Shown in pieces: positions 2,719 to 14,351 of a stretch of DNA of 21,141 nt. The stretch covers positions 1 to 21,141 of IMG/VR virus record IMGVR_UViG_3300042870_000380; one strand, given 5' to 3'. The notes beneath the pieces are model-generated. The model saw nothing but the letters and a program-made list of their open reading frames with translations, was not told where the DNA came from and ran no database searches. The position numbers were made by a program, and so were the translations under genes. The stretch's first letter is position 1; the number at the start of each line of letters is the position of its first letter. The DNA comes from a virus.

Positions 2719-3545
2719 AACATCCAACTGCGAAAGCAATACGCTCACTTATCTTGGAACATTGCCAAGACACAGAGAACGTTGGTGTGTTTCTTTCTGG
2801 TGGGGTGGACAGCAACGCTATTCTTGCGGCATATCTCGCCAATGGGGTACGTCCTATGGTTATTTCTTTCTGTCTTGATGGTCGTCCGTCAAGCGACTTT
2901 AGGACGGCTCAAAAGACCGCTAAACAAGAGGGCTTAGTATTTACCCCTATTTTCCTTCCTACAGGCTTAGAAACCGTCCTAGGCGACCTACAAAGCCTGA
3001 TACTTAACTATGGACTCAGGCGAAAAGCAGGAATTGAATCGTTTTGGCCTTGCTGGTATGCGATAAAAGAAGCACGCAAAATTGGTATCAGAGTTATCGC
3101 TAACGGCTTAACTGCTGGTGGCTTGTTTGGTGACGATAGAGATTGTTCTATCCGTGGTCACGGTGCAGATGGTGATGACCCGACTTGGCTGGATGAGATA
3201 CGTGCTGAAAAGTTTGCTAACCCAGACTACGGGCAAAAACTTGCATGGGATAAATTAACTACCGAGTTAGGTATCAAAGTGGTGTCACCTTATCGTGACC
3301 CAAGATTTAGGGAAATACTTTACGGTCACTCATACAAATCTTGTAATACTCCAGAGCAGAAGCAACCAATTCGTGACGCATTTCCTGAAATAATGAAATG
3401 GAATGTAAAGAAACACGTAAACCTGCAACTTGGTGACTCTGGTATCTCTGCTTTGTTTTCTGAACTGGTTAATCATCCAGTAAACACAAAAGGCTACAAA
3501 TCAGTAGTTGGTATATACAACGAGATAATCCGTGGACAAGCCTAA
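2697..3545 (+). CDS. Asparagine-synthase-like PP-loop ATPase, no glutaminase domain
   Basis: The 282-aa protein resembles the synthetase half of asparagine synthetase (Asn_synthase family). It shows the PP-loop FLSGGVDSNAI (residues about 32-42), which binds ATP pyrophosphate in enzymes that adenylate a carboxylate. Other family-like blocks follow: SDFRTAQKTAKQEG, the helix WPCWYAIKEARKIGIRVI, and a C-terminal SPYRDPRF with a downstream Lys-rich helix as in the P-F-L-D/K motifs. The N-terminal glutamine amidotransferase domain is absent, so ammonia or another amine would be the nucleophile. The usual GEGADE motif is replaced by GLTAGG (about 137-142), which argues for an altered substrate. 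It overlaps the ParB-like gene by 22 nt and the methyltransferase by 14 nt. A GTG at 2685 is an alternative start adding four residues. I infer a role in base modification. Confidence 0.75.
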   Translation: MVGQSQIEHPTAKAIRSLILEHCQDTENVGVFLSGGVDSNAILAAYLANGVRPMVISFCLDGRPSSDFRTAQKTAKQEGLVFTPIFLPTGLETVLGDLQSLILNYGLRRKAGIESFWPCWYAIKEARKIGIRVIANGLTAGGLFGDDRDCSIRGHGADGDDPTWLDEIRAEKFANPDYGQKLAWDKLTTELGIKVVSPYRDPRFREILYGHSYKSCNTPEQKQPIRDAFPEIMKWNVKKHVNLQLGDSGISALFSELVNHPVNTKGYKSVVGIYNEIIRGQA

Positions 3546-4596
3546 ATACAAAATCCCTTCTATGAAAGAAATAGCCAAAGTTAAAGGCACAAACGGCTAC
3601 AAAGTCGTTTCTACTTTCTCTGGTGCTGGCGGTTCATGCTTAGGGTTTGAAATGGCTGGTTATAAAGTTGTTTGGGCTAATGAGTTTGTAGAAGAAGCAA
3701 GAAACACTTACGTCCTTAATCATCCCAACGTTAAATTGAGTGCTGACGACATTAGAACTGTTAATCCAATGGATATTTTGTCAGAAGCACGCTTGAAACG
3801 TGGCGAGTTGGACGTATTGGAAGGCTCACCACCCTGCTCATCTTTCTCTACTGCTGGCAAACGGGAACGCTTATGGGGCAAAGACAAAGCCTATTCAGAC
3901 ACTAACCAAATAACTGACGACTTGTTTTTTGAGTATGTGCGCCTTCTTAAAGGCTTACAACCAAAAGTTTTTGTAGCCGAGAACGTTGCTGGACTTGTTA
4001 AGGGCGTGGCTAGGGGTTACTTCCTAGAGATACTTCAAGAATTAAAGGACGCTGGTTACAACGTTAAAGCCAAAGTGCTTGACAGTTCCTTTCTTGGTGT
4101 TCCACAAGCCAGACAAAGACTTATCTTTATAGGCGTTAGGAACGATTTAGGGCTTGAACCAGTATTCCCTACTCCTAAGTCCCCTAGATACACAATGCGT
4201 GACGCTATGGACGTTGTGATACGCCACACGAACGACCCTGAAACGGGTAAAGACATAACGCTAGACAGATACGCCCTCGGTAGAAAATGGAAACTTCTTA
4301 AAGAAGGAACCAAAGCCGAGACACCATTCTTGTTAGTTAGGTCGCATAGAGATAAGCCAATACAAACAATTACGGCTGAATGTGGAAACGTCCCTGCTGC
4401 TGGTGTTACCCACCCAACTCAATGCCGTAAGTTTACCCTTCACGAAGTACGCCGACTGTCAGGTTTTCCTGACGACTTTGAACTAACTGGAACGTTTGAA
4501 CAACGATGGGAAAGATTAGGACGGTCTGTACCGCCACCCATGATGAAAGCAATTGCTGAAACAATCAAGACAGAGATACTGGATAAAATAAAATGA
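3532..4596 (+). CDS. DNA cytosine-C5 methyltransferase family enzyme with Arg in motif X (possible carboxymethyltransferase)
   Basis: This 354-aa protein has the ordered C5-methyltransferase motifs: motif I TFSGAGGSCLGFEMAG (28-43, SAM binding), motif IV GSPPCSSFS with catalytic Cys102 (98-106), motif VI ENV (150-152), motif VIII QARQR (192-196), a variable target-recognition region (about 205-298), motif IX RKFTLHEVRRLSGFP (299-313) and motif X LGRSVPPPMM (329-338). In nearly all family members motif X reads GNSV; here Asn is Arg331. The equivalent residue lines the SAM pocket, and from memory an Asn374Lys change in M.MpeI permits use of carboxy-SAM. The natural Arg plus the nearby CmoA-like gene suggest transfer of a carboxymethyl group; plain methylation remains the alternative. 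The GTG start overlaps the preceding gene, and the stop overlaps the next start as ATGA. Confidence 0.93.
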   Translation: MDKPKYKIPSMKEIAKVKGTNGYKVVSTFSGAGGSCLGFEMAGYKVVWANEFVEEARNTYVLNHPNVKLSADDIRTVNPMDILSEARLKRGELDVLEGSPPCSSFSTAGKRERLWGKDKAYSDTNQITDDLFFEYVRLLKGLQPKVFVAENVAGLVKGVARGYFLEILQELKDAGYNVKAKVLDSSFLGVPQARQRLIFIGVRNDLGLEPVFPTPKSPRYTMRDAMDVVIRHTNDPETGKDITLDRYALGRKWKLLKEGTKAETPFLLVRSHRDKPIQTITAECGNVPAAGVTHPTQCRKFTLHEVRRLSGFPDDFELTGTFEQRWERLGRSVPPPMMKAIAETIKTEILDKIK

Positions 4597-7695: not shown

Positions 7696-7841
7696 AAGAA
7701 AAATTACAAACTATTATTTCAACAGGGTTTGAAGTATTGGGGTTTATATTGCTGATTGGGGGAGTCTCTACATTTAGTGTGCCAATTAGTGCTATTGTGG
7801 CAGGCATAATTCTAATTATTGTAGGCGGTCTAGCAGCGTGA
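7692..7841 (+). CDS. 49-aa membrane protein between terminase and portal
   Basis: A short ORF linked at both ends: its ATG overlaps the terminase stop (ATGA), and its TGA overlaps the portal GTG start (GTGA at 7838-7841). The product has a short polar N-terminus (MKEKLQTIISTG) and two hydrophobic segments, FEVLGFILLIGG and ISAIVAGIILIIVGGL, separated by a short SVP turn, so a two-helix hairpin membrane protein. No family is recognised. Very small membrane proteins at the terminase-portal junction are not part of the HK97 head assembly scheme. It may act in early membrane-associated events or be a translational bridge. Confidence 0.65.
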   Translation: MKEKLQTIISTGFEVLGFILLIGGVSTFSVPISAIVAGIILIIVGGLAA

Positions 7842-9001
7842 GCATTTGGCGCAAAACAGAACAACGGGCATTGCCACAATCTATAGACCCTTATGGTATT
7901 TCTGCTCGTCCCTATTACGCTAATTATTCTGGAGAAATTGTAAGTGAGGTAAATGTTTTTGCTTCATCCGCAATCTTATCTGCTGTCTCACTTCTTGCAG
8001 ACTCAATCGCTTCAATGCCAATAGACATTACTCAGCGCAAAGCAAACCAAATAGCACGACTACCAGTACCTTCTGTCTTTCAATACCCTAACGACAAGCA
8101 AAATATGTTTGAGTTTATGCACCAAACAATGACTACCCTTGCAATTCACGGTAACGCATACATTTATGCGCCAAGAGGCAAAAATGGTTTGCCAGTAGAG
8201 ATGCAGAACATTCATCCCAAAGCCGTAAAAGGTTTAGTGCAAACCGATACTGGCGCAATGGTTTATGAAATTGGGAAGCAGCAGTTTGCTAAAGAGGACA
8301 TTAAAGCAATACATTGGATAGTTCTTGCAGGTCAGGAAACTGGAGTTTCACCCATTGAAGCCTTGCGAAATACTATTGGTACTGGTTTGGCGATGGAACG
8401 CTTTTTGGCGCAGTTCTACGGAGAAGGCGCAACACCATCCTCTGTTTTGGAAACTGACGGGGCTATTACACCTGAGCAGGCACAACAAATTGCTCAAAAT
8501 TGGGAACAAGCCCATTACAAACATCGCAGACCTGCAGTTTTGCAGGGCGGACTTAAATGGCGAAGCATTACAACTTCAGCAGCCGATATGCAAATGCTTG
8601 AACACAAAGAGAGCATTATTCGTGATATTGCTCGTGTTTACCGCATTCCCTTACATCTAATTATTGGTACAGGTGGCGACACCCAGACTTACACCAATCT
8701 TGAAGGAACAGGTGCGGCATTTTACAAGTACACACTACTTGGATGGGTAAGGCGACTTGAAACAGCCTTTAGTGAGTTCCTTCCTGCAAACCAACAAATG
8801 CGCTTTGACGCAACAGAGTTCTTGCGGGCAGACCTGATGACCCGTGTTCAGGCGCAAACTATGCAGATTGCAAACGGCTCGCTGACTCCAAACGAAGCCC
8901 GTGAAATTGAAAATCGTGAACCATACGATGAAGGTAATGAGTTTGTACGCTCTAATACTGTAATTCCTGTTGGTCAAGACGCAGTTCCACCGAGTAAATA
9001 A
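7838..9001 (+). CDS. Portal protein, HK97 family
   Basis: A 387-aa protein with the recognisable HK97-type portal pattern: an N-terminal wing (NVFASSAILSAVSLLADSIASMPI), the conserved NAYIY segment after the MHQTMTTLAIHG helix, a central SPIEALRNTIGTGLAMERF stretch, and the clip/stem region around RDIARVYRIPLHLIIGTGGDTQTYTNLE (the family's DIARxFxIPxxLLG motif). The C-terminus (LTPNEAREIENREPYD) is the common portal NEaR...EgLpP-like ending. Twelve copies form the ring through which DNA enters the capsid. The GTG start is coupled to the preceding small gene. The stop overlaps the next start as TAATG. Confidence 0.95.
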   Translation: MSIWRKTEQRALPQSIDPYGISARPYYANYSGEIVSEVNVFASSAILSAVSLLADSIASMPIDITQRKANQIARLPVPSVFQYPNDKQNMFEFMHQTMTTLAIHGNAYIYAPRGKNGLPVEMQNIHPKAVKGLVQTDTGAMVYEIGKQQFAKEDIKAIHWIVLAGQETGVSPIEALRNTIGTGLAMERFLAQFYGEGATPSSVLETDGAITPEQAQQIAQNWEQAHYKHRRPAVLQGGLKWRSITTSAADMQMLEHKESIIRDIARVYRIPLHLIIGTGGDTQTYTNLEGTGAAFYKYTLLGWVRRLETAFSEFLPANQQMRFDATEFLRADLMTRVQAQTMQIANGSLTPNEAREIENREPYDEGNEFVRSNTVIPVGQDAVPPSK

Positions 9002-9255
9002 TGAAGTCAATCGCAGTTACAGTCACAACATCACCAACATTGGTTATAGCGGCAGATAATATCCCACGCCACTGTTATCTACATTCATCATCAGGTTCCC
9101 TTTATATTGGCGGCAATGATGTGACTGCTGCAAATGGTTTCCACTTATCTAATGGTGAAAGTATTGAACTCTTCGTGCAAACTAACGAAACTGTCTATGC
9201 GATTGCCTCATCCAGTAGCCACACAATGCGTGTTCTAACGCCTGATGTGGATTAG
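9001..9255 (+). CDS. Small beta-rich head-associated protein, 84 aa
   Basis: A small protein of alternating beta-strand-like segments (KSIAVTVTTSPTLVIAA, SSGSLYIGGNDVTAANGFHLS, ESIELFVQTNETVYAIASS) with no Cys cluster or membrane helix. The IGGNDVTAANGFHL-GESIEL pattern recurs in small uncharacterised proteins of phage head modules and fits a compact beta-sandwich. Its place between portal and prohead protease suggests a decoration or connector role, but this is positional inference. The ATG overlaps the portal stop codon, and two bases separate its stop from the protease start. Confidence 0.6.
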   Translation: MKSIAVTVTTSPTLVIAADNIPRHCYLHSSSGSLYIGGNDVTAANGFHLSNGESIELFVQTNETVYAIASSSSHTMRVLTPDVD

Positions 9256-9257
9256 TT

Positions 9258-10631
9258 ATGCCATACGGGATTTCTGATAAACAGCCTGACTGTAACGGTT
9301 GGGCAACTGTTAAAGAAGTACAGAATGGTTACGAAACTATTGGCTGTCATGTTTCTAAGCAAGATGCAATAGACAACATGGTTGCTGCATCAATTACTGA
9401 AGATATTGAACCGATTGGTGAAGTTCGCGCACTGCCTAGTAATTACAGACCTGCGCTTGCTGATGACGTTCCCGAAGGTAGAGCGTGTGGCAACTGTGAA
9501 TACTATGACGAAGACAACAAAGACGATTCAGGAGAAAAGGCATACTGCACACGCTGGAACGATTATGTCAGTGGTGCCTTCTACTGTAACGCTTGGGAAC
9601 CTCATGAAGACGATGACGAGATGGAAGATGACGAATATCGTGCCGTAAATCTCTCTGCACCTGAGTTTATGCGTGCAAATGCAAGGCGTGGACTTAAATA
9701 CCATGAAGAAGGTTTGTCAGGCGATGGGCTTCAACCACAAACAGTAGAAGATGCTCGTAAAATGGCATCGGGTACTGTTACCGAAGCCAAATGGCGCAAG
9801 ATTGCACCTTGGATAGCAAGACACACCGTTGATTTAGAATCCGAAGGTGTTAAGGCTGGAGACATTACACCTGGTCTAGTTGCCCATTTACTGTGGGGCA
9901 GTGGCACAACCAAAACAGCAGCAGCAAGAACTCAGCAATACGCTGAACGGGTTGTTGCACGATTAGAACAAGAAAAAGATTCACGCACTCGCATTGCATC
10001 AGAATTATTTGCTAATATAAGGAGCATTATGACGGAATCAAATACAATTAATTGGGTTGTACGGGAAGAGAACGAAACTCGCCGTATTGCCTACTCTGAC
10101 CTAGAGATTAGAGCGTCAGACGATGGAACCAAAATTGTAGGATATGCCGCCATTTTTGACTCGCCTTCCGAACCAATGCCATTTACTGAATATGTTAGAA
10201 GTGGTGCATTTTCTAAAACCCTTAACGATGGTGCAGATGTAAGACTTCTTATAGACCATGAAGGCATCCCGTTAGCAAGAACTAAATCGGGAACCTTACG
10301 TTTAGAGGAAGACGACATTGGGTTGCGTATTGAAACAGACCTTGACCCGATGAACCCAGATGCTGCACGTTTAATTTCTGCAATGAAGCGAGGCGATATG
10401 TCACAAATGTCATTCGCATTCCGTACAGTTAAAGACTCTTGGAACTCAGACCGTTCTGTAAGAGAACTAAAAGAGGTGCAACTTTATGATGTTAGCGTTG
10501 TAACTTTTCCCGCTTATGAGGAAACCGTAGCCGAGTTGCGTTCTCAAATGCAAAATGTTACAATCCCACCAGTTTCTAATTTAAGTCTCAGAAAAAATGA
10601 GATTGCAATTCAGAGATACCGAAGCCGTTAA
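9258..10631 (+). CDS. Multi-domain head maturation protein with C-terminal prohead protease
   Basis: A 457-aa protein in four parts. Residues 1-50 form a small Cys/His module (PDC12NGW, GC30H31). Residues 74-115 form a four-Cys cluster (C77GNC80, C97, C110), an iron-sulphur or zinc-type module. Residues 135-245 are a helical domain (ANARRGLKYHEEG, EARKMASGTVTEAKWRKIAPWIARH, PGLVAHLLWG) seen in phage head-protein fusions. Residues 265-430 form the HK97-family serine prohead protease with a candidate catalytic His334 (LLIDH) and Ser in the MSQMSFAF block (382/385). HK97 protease alone is about 225 aa, so this is twice the normal size. A strong internal Shine-Dalgarno and ATG at 10029 lie precisely at the domain border. 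The fused form may place the first domains inside the prohead as scaffold cargo. Confidence 0.88.
   Translation: MPYGISDKQPDCNGWATVKEVQNGYETIGCHVSKQDAIDNMVAASITEDIEPIGEVRALPSNYRPALADDVPEGRACGNCEYYDEDNKDDSGEKAYCTRWNDYVSGAFYCNAWEPHEDDDEMEDDEYRAVNLSAPEFMRANARRGLKYHEEGLSGDGLQPQTVEDARKMASGTVTEAKWRKIAPWIARHTVDLESEGVKAGDITPGLVAHLLWGSGTTKTAAARTQQYAERVVARLEQEKDSRTRIASELFANIRSIMTESNTINWVVREENETRRIAYSDLEIRASDDGTKIVGYAAIFDSPSEPMPFTEYVRSGAFSKTLNDGADVRLLIDHEGIPLARTKSGTLRLEEDDIGLRIETDLDPMNPDAARLISAMKRGDMSQMSFAFRTVKDSWNSDRSVRELKEVQLYDVSVVTFPAYEETVAELRSQMQNVTIPPVSNLSLRKNEIAIQRYRSR
10019..10024 (+). promoter_or_regulatory. Internal Shine-Dalgarno within the protease gene
   Basis: AAGGAG is followed by four bases (CATT) and an in-frame ATG at 10029. 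It is among the strongest ribosome binding sites in the window, and it lies inside an open reading frame just where the helical domain ends and the protease domain begins. Confidence 0.65.
10029..10631 (+). CDS. Nested in-frame start: stand-alone prohead protease (200 aa)
   Basis: Translation from the internal ATG gives MTESNTINWVVREEN... and then the complete protease domain, 200 aa, close to the size of free-standing HK97-type proteases. All candidate catalytic residues are retained; residues 334, 382 and 385 of the long form become 77, 125 and 128. The long and short forms would share a C-terminus. Two isoforms from one gene have precedent in phage head genes such as lambda C/Nu3. Use of this start is inferred from the Shine-Dalgarno and its position only. 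Confidence 0.55.
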   Translation: MTESNTINWVVREENETRRIAYSDLEIRASDDGTKIVGYAAIFDSPSEPMPFTEYVRSGAFSKTLNDGADVRLLIDHEGIPLARTKSGTLRLEEDDIGLRIETDLDPMNPDAARLISAMKRGDMSQMSFAFRTVKDSWNSDRSVRELKEVQLYDVSVVTFPAYEETVAELRSQMQNVTIPPVSNLSLRKNEIAIQRYRSR

Positions 10632-10701
10632 TCAGCCGCACCATTGGCGCACTGTAAAAACACTTAATAAACAACCAACAACCATTATTGGAGAAAATTA
10701 A

Positions 10702-12024
10702 ATGTCCATGACACAAAACCTTACAGAAAAGCGTGATGCTGCTCTTGCAAAAGCAGAAGCAATTGTTGAAGCCGCAAAAACAGAAGCCCGTGAACTTACC
10801 TCAGAAGAGGACACAGAAATCACAGCATCTCTTGATGAATGCCGTTCACTTGACGAGCAAATTAAGACTCATTCTGAACTTGAAAAGCGTTCAGCAGAAG
10901 CAGCCGAACTGCGTAAAGCAAACAAGTTTGACAGTGCAGTAGCACCAACGATTGTAAAATCTGAGGCTCGCACCTACTCACCACAAGCGCCAACCTCTTT
11001 CGTTCGTGACGCTTTTGCTGCACAATTTAACAACGACTACGAAGCACAGAGTCGCCTCACCCGCCACATGAACGAAGAAAAAGTAGAACGCCGTGATGTA
11101 ACAAGCGCAAACTTCGCTGGTCTCATCGTTCCACAGTTTCTTACTGAATTGGCAGCACCGTTTGCTCGTGCAGGTCGCCCTTTCCTTGAAGTAGCCCGCA
11201 AACACGCACTACCTGATGCTGGTCTTGTAATTTCATTGTCTAAGGTCACTACTGGTTCTGCAACCGCAGTACAGACCGAAGGTGCCGCAGTTCAAGAAAC
11301 AAACATGGATGACACAAAGTTGGACATTTCAGTTGTAACTGTTGCAGGTCAGCAGAATGTTTCTCGCCAGTCAATTGAGCGTGGAACAAACATTGACTCG
11401 CTTGTAATGGCAGACCTTGTTTCTGCATACCACACGAACCTTGATTCGTTGTTCGTAACAACAAGTGCAACGTCACTCACAAACACCATTACACAAGTAG
11501 TTACCTACACCGATGCCAGTCCAACAGTAAGCGAACTATATCCAAAGTTTGCTGATTGTATTCAGCGTATTCAGACCAACTTCTTTGCGGGTCCGAACTT
11601 CATCCTGATGCACCCACGCCGTTTGGCTTTCATCCTTGCAGCGCAAGATGACCAAAAGCGCCCTCTTGCAGTGCCAGTTCCAAACTTCAATGGACAGCCT
11701 GCTGTTATGTCAGGTAACGGTGCGCCAATCTACGGCAACAGTGGTTACACAATCATGGGTCTCCCTGTCATCACGGATGCCAATGTCATTACAACCAATG
11801 GTGCAGGTGCAAACGAGGATGTCATCATCTTCGGTAACACCCAAGAAGCACACTTGTTTGAACAGGGTACTGGCGAGCCAATGATGCTTCGTTTTGAACA
11901 GCCAAAGGCTGCCGAACTTGATATCACAATGATTGTCTATGGATACTCAGCATTTACTGCTAACCGTTACCCAAATGCATTCTCTCTCATCGGGGGAACT
12001 GGATTGGTCACACCAACCTTCTAA
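10702..12024 (+). CDS. Major capsid protein, HK97 fold
   Basis: The 440-aa protein has the HK97 layout. Residues about 1-85 form a charged helical, coiled-coil delta domain acting as internal scaffold (AEAIVEAAKTEARELTSEEDTEI, LDECRSLDEQIKTHSELEKR), to be removed by the upstream protease. The mature shell domain follows, starting near residue 100. Shell blocks include the GLIVPQFLTELAAPF N-arm, the P-domain strand TTGSATAVQTEGAA, SRQSIERGTNIDSLV, the MHPRRLAFILAAQD helix, and the GLPVITDANV loop with a C-terminal E-loop/A-domain ending. GGAG lies nine bases before the ATG. A terminator follows the stop, as expected for a gene whose product is needed in the highest amount. Confidence 0.95.
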   Translation: MSMTQNLTEKRDAALAKAEAIVEAAKTEARELTSEEDTEITASLDECRSLDEQIKTHSELEKRSAEAAELRKANKFDSAVAPTIVKSEARTYSPQAPTSFVRDAFAAQFNNDYEAQSRLTRHMNEEKVERRDVTSANFAGLIVPQFLTELAAPFARAGRPFLEVARKHALPDAGLVISLSKVTTGSATAVQTEGAAVQETNMDDTKLDISVVTVAGQQNVSRQSIERGTNIDSLVMADLVSAYHTNLDSLFVTTSATSLTNTITQVVTYTDASPTVSELYPKFADCIQRIQTNFFAGPNFILMHPRRLAFILAAQDDQKRPLAVPVPNFNGQPAVMSGNGAPIYGNSGYTIMGLPVITDANVITTNGAGANEDVIIFGNTQEAHLFEQGTGEPMMLRFEQPKAAELDITMIVYGYSAFTANRYPNAFSLIGGTGLVTPTF

Positions 12025-13362: not shown

Positions 13363-13526
13363 TGGCACAATATAAAGTTATTTCAGATAATTGCGGTCTT
13401 GGCAATCAGGGCGAAACAGTTGATAGTGATAAGTTTGAGGGTGTTAATTTTGATGCTCTTGTTGAAGGTGGACATATCGCAGAAGCAAAAGGCAAAACTG
13501 AACCTAAAGAACAGGACACAAAGTAA
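13362..13526 (+). CDS. Small conserved-type connector-region protein, 54 aa
   Basis: A short acidic protein (MAQYKVISDNCGLGNQGETV...) with the pattern of a beta-hairpin, a glycine turn, then FDALVEGGHIAEAK and a Lys/Glu-rich disordered tail. The ALVEGGHI ending recurs in small proteins next to tail genes of actinophages. Its function is unknown. ATG overlaps the preceding stop (TAATG), and its own TAA is followed at once by the next ATG. Confidence 0.65.
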   Translation: MAQYKVISDNCGLGNQGETVDSDKFEGVNFDALVEGGHIAEAKGKTEPKEQDTK

Positions 13527-13933
13527 TGGCTCAACTAGTTCTAACTAATTGCAGTATTAAAGTTAATACAGTAGCACTTGCCAGTCGTGCAAACAGCGTT
13601 ACACTTAATTATGAGATTGACTCTGTTGAAGTAACCGCTTTTGGTTCAGGCGGACACACCTTTACTGGCGGATTACAAAACAACAGTATTGAAATGGCGT
13701 TGATGCAGGATTTTGCAGCAGCAAATGTTGAAGCCACTATCTACCCACTTGTAGGCACAACCACAACGGTTGAAATTATCCCTGTGGACACAACAGTTAG
13801 TTCAACCAACCCTAAATACACAGTCTCAGGCACATTCCTTGCAGCACACAGCCCAGTTGCAGGCGCAGTCGGAGAACTAGCAATGACCTCTTTAACCTTT
13901 ACGGGTGGCACACTCGTTAAAGCAACTTCATAA
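13526..13933 (+). CDS. Major tail (tube) protein, copy 1
   Basis: A 135-aa beta-rich protein (NSVTLNYEIDSVEVTAFGSGGH, GGLQNNSIEMALMQDFAAANVEA, PVAGAVGELAMTSLTFTGGTL) matching siphophage tail-tube proteins. The immunoglobulin-like extra domain of larger tube proteins is absent. Position before the tail assembly chaperone and tape measure agrees. It is about 71 percent identical in a gap-free hand alignment to the adjacent copy 2, so it arose by tandem duplication. Either both copies build the tube or one is specialised. Confidence 0.8.
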   Translation: MAQLVLTNCSIKVNTVALASRANSVTLNYEIDSVEVTAFGSGGHTFTGGLQNNSIEMALMQDFAAANVEATIYPLVGTTTTVEIIPVDTTVSSTNPKYTVSGTFLAAHSPVAGAVGELAMTSLTFTGGTLVKATS

Positions 13934-13943
13934 GGAATAACAA

Positions 13944-14351
13944 ATGGCAACTCTTGTTTTAACAAACGCATACATTTCAGTAAACGCAGTCGTCCTATCT
14001 GACCACGCTAATTCTGTAACGCTTAACTACGAAAATGACTCAATTGAGATTACGGCTTTTGGCGATACAGGGCACAAGTTCACAGGTGGACTTCAGAATA
14101 ACTCTTGCGAAATCGCCTTTATGCAGGACTTTGCCGCTTCTAATGTTGAAGCCACGCTCTACCCTTTGGTAGGCACCACAACCAACGTGATTATTAAGCC
14201 AAACGGTTCGGTAACCAGCGCAACAAACCCTGCCTACACTCTTACAGGTGCTTACCTTGCTTCACATACTCCTGTGGCTGGCGCAGTTGGCGAACTGGCA
14301 ATGACTAGCGTTACCTTCACAGGTGGCACATTGGCTAAAGCAGTCTCTTAA
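13944..14351 (+). CDS. Major tail (tube) protein, copy 2
   Basis: A paralogue of the gene just upstream, with no insertion or deletion. The most conserved blocks are NSVTLNYE, FTGGLQNNS, MQDFAA and PVAGAVGELAMTS. Differences cluster in residues 9-21 and 81-91, likely surface or inter-ring loops. It has its own Shine-Dalgarno (AAGGA with a 7-nt spacing) and may be made in a different amount from copy 1. Either copy could be the main tube subunit. Confidence 0.8.
   Translation: MATLVLTNAYISVNAVVLSDHANSVTLNYENDSIEITAFGDTGHKFTGGLQNNSCEIAFMQDFAASNVEATLYPLVGTTTNVIIKPNGSVTSATNPAYTLTGAYLASHTPVAGAVGELAMTSVTFTGGTLAKAVS

Follow-up and report, generated by a model that had tools for sequence, protein, structure and literature searches.

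The question raised by this locus is whether a phage head-maturation protease is made only as the C-terminal half of a longer protein or also as a free enzyme, from a ribosome start inside the gene. The window, by which we mean the whole stretch of DNA analyzed, is a 21,141-base record from an uncultured phage. Its protease gene encodes a 257-residue N-terminal part followed by a 200-residue protease part and lies in the position expected of an S78 protease gene, in the order portal (7838-9001), small gene, protease gene and capsid protein (Table 1). The match to PF04586 is significant across the whole Peptidase_S78 domain, all of which is retained in the short form. Elsewhere in the window, two adjacent 135-aa open reading frames (13526-13933 and 13944-14351) look by eye like tandem copies of one protein, and an open reading frame at 3532-4596 resembles a DNA cytosine methyltransferase, judging by eye from its motif.

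Table 1. Coordinates of the protease gene, its parts and its neighbors in the window
Feature	Position	Strand	Size or basis
Small upstream gene	9001..9255	+	Stop ends 2 nt before the ATG of the long form
Long form, N-terminal module plus prohead protease	9258..10631	+	457 aa; PHROG_80 head maturation protease, residues 1-432, E 1.5e-84
N-terminal domain, residues 1-52, strands plus one helix, C12 and C30	9258..9413	+	AlphaFold model
Four-Cys stretch, residues 71-113, HiPIP-like below the Pfam cut-off	9468..9596	+	PF01355; Cys counted by eye
Helical domain, residues 136-241; its last helix continues to 251 in the model, at low confidence from residue 242 on	9663..9980	+	AlphaFold model
Low-confidence inter-domain linker, residues 242-267, containing the internal start	9981..10058	+	pLDDT <50 at 242-286
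Shine-Dalgarno AAGGAG of the internal start	10019..10024	+	-7.4 kcal/mol anti-SD pairing
Internal ATG, M258, 8 codons before the conserved Trp	10029..10031	+	Sequence
Short form, predicted free prohead protease	10029..10631	+	200 aa; Peptidase_S78 entirely inside
Peptidase_S78 domain, long-form residues 281-434	10098..10559	+	PF04586, E 8.8e-44, profile 2-162 of 165
Major capsid protein, downstream	10702..12024	+	PHROG_2263 major head protein, E 9.6e-44

The first-pass annotation described AAGGAG, four nucleotides and an in-frame ATG within this gene, giving products of 457 and 200 aa, and this description is exact. The site reads TAATATAAGGAGCATTATGACGG, with AAGGAG at 10019-10024, CATT at 10025-10028 and ATG at 10029-10031; the ATG is in frame with 9258, 257 codons on, and the frame is open to 10631. 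Judged by sequence, the head-protease genes of the window and of some relatives contain a candidate in-frame internal start with a Shine-Dalgarno (SD) sequence. Given the protein sequence and the codon use of the window, AAGGAG has a probability of about 0.006-0.007 at this place. Across 22 genes of the window, a single internal in-frame ATG carries a 6-nt SD, where synonymous recoding gives a mean of 0.59 (P 0.36). Taken by itself, the motif is weak evidence, since about one such site per window is expected by chance, and the case is therefore carried by the position of the site and by comparative data.

By anti-SD pairing, the internal site ranks behind two of 23 usable gene starts (27 are listed, four with start coordinates that are in-frame placeholders). 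The SD of the long form itself, before 9258, is weak (-3.5 kcal/mol), which together with the start 2 nt past the upstream stop makes translational coupling possible. Accessibility of the internal ribosome-binding site (RBS) is ordinary, with a mean unpaired probability of 0.39; in the window, gene starts average 0.49 and internal ATGs 0.46. The strongest anti-SD pairing beside an internal ATG is found at 10398, with GCGAGGCGAT upstream (-8.7 compared to -7.4 kcal/mol). That site is very probably spurious, as it lies inside the protease domain and a start there would cut the domain, and it serves as a useful false positive for anti-SD pairing scores. A promoter within the linker was considered and rejected: two promoter-like sites occur in 9200-10760, both on the minus strand, compared to a mean of 3.1 in shuffles.

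The position of the ATG was examined in an AlphaFold model of the long form, built from 34 sequences (mean pLDDT 64.9, pTM 0.32). Residues 1-60 are modeled with pLDDT 69-91 in blocks of ten, and C12 and C30 are invariant across 34 aligned rows. The Cys region, residues 59-128, is poorly predicted, and its likeness to HiPIP proteins stays below the PF01355 cut-off of 22 bits (15.5 for the long form, 16.9 for the N-terminal part alone). PHROG_2859 weakly matches residues 133-241, covering the helical domain (E 4.6e-05). A fold search with the whole model gave no PDB match at E <=0.001; the hits were weak only, a herpesvirus protease among them. Confidence falls below 50 over residues 242-286, a stretch in which the protease half begins its first strand, at 268. 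The first-pass annotation had placed the internal start exactly at a domain border; in the model M258 does lie between the helical domain and S78, but within a low-confidence linker that has no sharp edge.

Relatives of the window’s subfamily were collected from IMG/VR in three scans, keeping the best 80 loci each of 171, 473 and 322 relatives. Counting the window, this gave 231 loci, of which 138 were unique, that is, different in their final 600 nt; one locus without an anchor (L131) was left out. Fused and split counts also omit L168, which reaches a contig end and belongs to clade B by tree with a different linker, and L228, which has no ATG. Among the best 80 loci per scan, the protease is fused to the upstream frame in 71 of the 138 unique loci and is a separate gene starting at the domain border in 65. 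These standalone genes start 6 codons before the conserved Trp in 64 cases and 11 codons before it in one, compared to 8 codons for the window’s ATG. Nearly all standalone starts (64/65) have an SD of at least 4 nt, 30 of the 65 have one of at least 5 nt, and in 59 of the 65 loci an open reading frame for the N-terminal part lies upstream. The existence of the protease as a separate gene in 65 loci indicates that covalent tethering is not required in the split clade. A protein tree with distant outgroups was set aside, its outgroup branches having 1-9 changes per column, and an ingroup DNA tree was used. In this tree of 136 loci, the 64 split rows and one fused row, L057, form a single group (support 91/88), and the fused and split states need two changes. 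L057 retains a 4-nt SD and the ATG. In L228 (1589-2503), the N-terminal part stops about 0.9 kb before the protease Trp, and no ATG lies near the border in the protease frame.

Within the fused genes of this subfamily, SDs are enriched at the linker. Of 71 ATGs at most 20 codons from the Trp, 16 follow an SD of 5 nt or more, compared to 38 of 918 other in-frame ATGs of the same genes. After thinning at 84% rough protein identity (70 fused loci without L165, a 14-codon limit and a median of 16 representatives), the median count was 3/12 compared to 9/222, with a median Fisher p of 0.016 (range 0.005-0.034). The window’s own clade has an SD of 5-6 nt in all seven unique loci, in the three forms AAGGAG, AAGGA and AGGAG. 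Other fused loci carry GAGGT or GAGGTG (L014, L017, L047, L049 and L050) or AAGGA (L056, L194 and L229) in the linker, and L020 alone has its SD site 18 codons before the Trp. A 6-nt SD is limited among fused loci to five members of the window clade (AAGGAG) and L014 (GAGGTG). In the fused L017 and the standalone L132, the leader, RBS and start are nearly identical: AACTATGGTGAGGT, four other bases and ATGAGC.

This signal is far from universal. No linker SD of at least 5 nt was found in 55 of the 71 fused loci; in a count restricted to the 14 codons before the conserved Trp, 15 have one of at least 5 nt, three have 4 nt, 31 have the ATG only and 22 have no ATG. Clade B, six unique loci (L007, L008, L010, L011, L067 and L165), contains the full-length proteins next most similar to the window’s, yet it stands apart in the protease tree. 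Its members keep the fused frame and the ATG and have CGC in place of the window’s AGG, which removes the SD. The first-pass annotation had held that relatives losing the SD or the ATG while keeping the fused frame would speak against its proposal, and such relatives exist, both in clade B and among the 22 loci without a linker ATG. The internal start is thus not required throughout the window’s subfamily. The same annotation had looked to conservation of the SD against synonymous drift as a check, and the outcome does not set the SD apart: the linker of the window clade is low in synonymous variation, but clade B is equally quiet without the SD and 8-10% of the stretches compared are as low, so the quietness cannot be credited to the SD. 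Codon invariance at single Arg and Glu columns was too weak and was dropped as evidence. Little variation is also seen in the window clade at 10570-10700, from the final codons of the protease gene into the spacer ahead of the capsid gene, and the end of the protease gene likewise varies little in clade B; this stretch may act on the capsid gene as an RNA or regulatory element.

A sister subfamily, that of Pontimonas phage phiPsal1, provides the decisive evidence for an internal start at the border. A scan of species genomes identified two fused relatives, L240 and L241, in one Microbacteriaceae MAG, both with GGAGG 8 nt before an in-frame border ATG. Scans with L241 and phiPsal1 gave 80 loci each, of 80 and (best 80) 322 relatives. 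Adding L240, L241 and phiPsal1 to these 160 loci made 163; a usable protease match was present in 160 of them, and of these 118 were unique and 114 were kept. Three loci (L342, L344 and L345) were out because they had no passing protease match, and four distant ones that match only the query’s protease part (L339, L340, L341 and L343) were removed by hand. Rows were anchored on the first motif match. In 113 of the 114 loci, 97 or more open codons precede the GYAA motif; in the exception, L333, the contig ends after 40.

The border codon of these genes, just before SK-x-ETR and 25-27 codons before GYAA, is ATG in 37 of the 114 unique fused loci, TTG in 56, GTG in nine, Lys in ten, and CTT and CTC in one each, so that 102 have a start-type codon and only two of the 104 rows with Met, Val or Leu do not. 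Leu is encoded by TTG in 56 of 58 rows, compared to 31% of Leu codons elsewhere in sister genes, and Val by GTG in 9/9, compared to the usual 38%. No such limit to start codons applies to a control column three codons downstream, where TTG makes up 18 of 53 Leu codons and Ile occurs in 40 rows and Met in 17. Of the 102 start-type border codons, 101 follow an SD of at least 4 nt, compared to 26.5% of 3920 other start-type codons, and 42 follow one of at least 5 nt, compared to 6.9%. The ten Lys rows each have a GTG five codons upstream with an SD of 4-5 nt. The best explanation of the sister border, where Met, Val and Leu are almost always written as ATG, GTG or TTG, appears to be a start codon.

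One search pattern of the L241 scan, EAKDMAKI, spans the start site and favors ATG rows, and the test was therefore repeated on the loci of the phiPsal1 scan alone, whose patterns avoid the site. This set (best 80 of 322 relatives; 61 unique after removal of 19 duplicates) has TTG for 50/50 Leu, GTG for 4/4 Val, one ATG and six Lys. Thinned at 85%, TTG remains at 10/10 (P 2.5e-5), with 2/7 in the downstream control. SDs of at least 4 nt precede 55/55 border codons, compared to 679/2334 elsewhere; those of at least 5 nt are not enriched in this set (3/55 compared to 192/2334), so that the signal there rests on 4-nt SDs and start codons. Part of the sister 4-nt SDs (AAGG) is dictated by a Lys-Gly pair with either Lys codon, and Lys before Gly shows no AAG bias (p 0.40; thinned, 0.98). 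Codon choice is skewed at other sister SDs: Gly before Glu is GGA in 17/31, compared to the usual 12% (p 1.3e-8; thinned 4/9, p 0.016), and Val-Glu is written GTG GAG in 32/35 (thinned 7/9; GTG p 0.017, GAG p 0.15). The window’s start lies 37 codons before GYAA and the sister’s 25-27, so the two may be non-homologous and of separate origin. The two distant loci L339 and L343, whose protease frames begin as little as 28 and 37 codons before a GYAA-type motif, have an ATG with a 6-nt SD 25 and 26 codons before that motif, the position of the sister internal start.

Several explanations could account for these observations. The SD and ATG could have arisen by chance, or be left over, unused, from a separate protease gene, with only the fused protein made. 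One such match is expected per window, clade B and the 22 fused loci without a linker ATG manage without the signal, and a stronger pairing, at 10398, is very probably spurious. On the other hand, the SD of at least 5 nt occurs in all seven loci of the window clade in three forms, and the limitation of the sister border to start codons speaks for working internal initiation in the family; we consider chance or a remnant unlikely. About as unlikely, or slightly more so, is release of the protease by self-cleavage in the linker, with the internal start secondary. Self-processing is known for phage head proteases, fused relatives without a start signal would need cleavage if a free protease is needed, and the predicted low confidence of the linker is as expected of a flexible stretch. 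An excerpt of one report describes phage proteases that cut scaffold and capsid proteins in head maturation (PMC3185693). Against cleavage, the linker sequence differs greatly between clades, with no motif shared by eye, and TTG at 56 of 58 sister Leu positions would be left unexplained.

It is very improbable that the signal acts in ribosome pausing, or in folding during translation where the two domains meet, instead of in initiation. An SD-like stretch at a domain border with ordinary RBS accessibility would fit such a role, yet pausing needs no downstream ATG, GTG or TTG, and the sister subfamily keeps them; moreover, the same border is a gene start in standalone relatives. We conclude that internal initiation is very probably real, as far as sequence comparison can tell, though not universal. 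The earlier proposal that the internal start yields a free protease is supported by standalone relatives that begin at the same border and by sister ATG, GTG and TTG codons with SDs, but does not hold as a general rule. As the same annotation suggested, the two forms may coexist and the N-terminal part may bring protease into the prohead.

In 20-codon blocks, DNA identity between the window and L007 of clade B is 95-100% over residues 21-80 and 50-87% elsewhere, a pattern that points to a recent exchange of this N-terminal segment. The segment, window 9318-9497, has 95-100% DNA identity to L007, L008 and L067. Two loci, L060 and L067, one member from each of two clades, have about 122 extra residues inserted at the same border, between the helical domain and the linker; the stretch scored as DUF5824 in L060, and L067 is alike by eye. 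Of the 26 split N-part proteins listed, 13 finish in a similar stretch, judged by eye. These comparisons indicate that the N-terminal part of the protease gene is mosaic. A broader scheme, which we regard as possible but tentative, is that the head-protease family combines a portable mosaic N-terminal module with a linker carrying the protease’s own ribosome site, so that modules would be swapped, added (as with DUF5824) or split off without stopping production of free protease; the fused form would bring the module or extra protease into the prohead.

Nested in-frame genes for head proteases are known, with scaffold as the short product; the window differs in that the predicted short product is the protease. 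In lambda, Nu3 has an internal in-frame start within gene C. According to a passage in PMC8508860, P2 and lambda use one gene for both protease and scaffold. Lambda C/Nu3 and P2 gene O resemble the window’s gene in being head-protease genes with a second function in the C-terminal part, but their C-terminal short product is the scaffold, whereas the window’s is the protease itself. A section of another report describes a protease gene, gene 27 of the Mu-like Pseudomonas phage PaMx73, within which an in-frame start has an SD of its own (PMC4378225); it and Mu I/Z share this arrangement with the window, although their internal product is again scaffold. The window’s gene therefore falls outside the type in which scaffold is the short product, as its short form holds the whole protease domain. 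Scaffold function may reside in the capsid protein’s own N-terminal region. Standalone HK97-type S78 proteases belong to the same Peptidase_S78 family as the window’s C-terminal half but have no N-terminal module in the protease frame. In open-licence literature, the titles and abstract openings among the matches listed mention no internal start that releases the protease itself. The prohead protease of phiPsal1 (MG835450, AUV61415.1) also has an N-terminal part and S78 in one frame, with 45.5% identity over 93%. It has TTG at the border with GGAG 5 nt upstream, compared to ATG in the window, and its internal codon lies 25 codons before GYAA, compared to 37; it is annotated as one gene. A passage of the phiPsal1 paper says that this phage is not discussed further (PMC6106888).

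Taken together, the 457-aa gene is likely a nested in-frame protease gene that encodes a fused long form and an independently started, free 200-aa protease. Ribosomes would start at 9258, perhaps coupled to the upstream gene, to make the fused long form, and a separate initiation at 10029, directed by AAGGAG, would yield the whole S78 protease in free form. A free protease would be kept in many lineages, as a separate gene in one clade and through an internal start in others, and the N-terminal module would be an accessory that a gene can gain, lose or exchange while keeping the internal start. We infer that ribosomes use the internal site in the window phage, that the short form may be more abundant than the long form, and that the free form would be the one acting in the prohead.

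The nearest named phage that we found, phiPsal1, is annotated with one long protein. If the internal start is used, the head-maturation enzyme would be partly a product that is absent from such annotation, and the N-terminus sought in structural studies and proteomics would be the wrong one. Leu and Val written only as start codons within a fused frame provide a simple comparative signature, for which other phage genes could be scanned.
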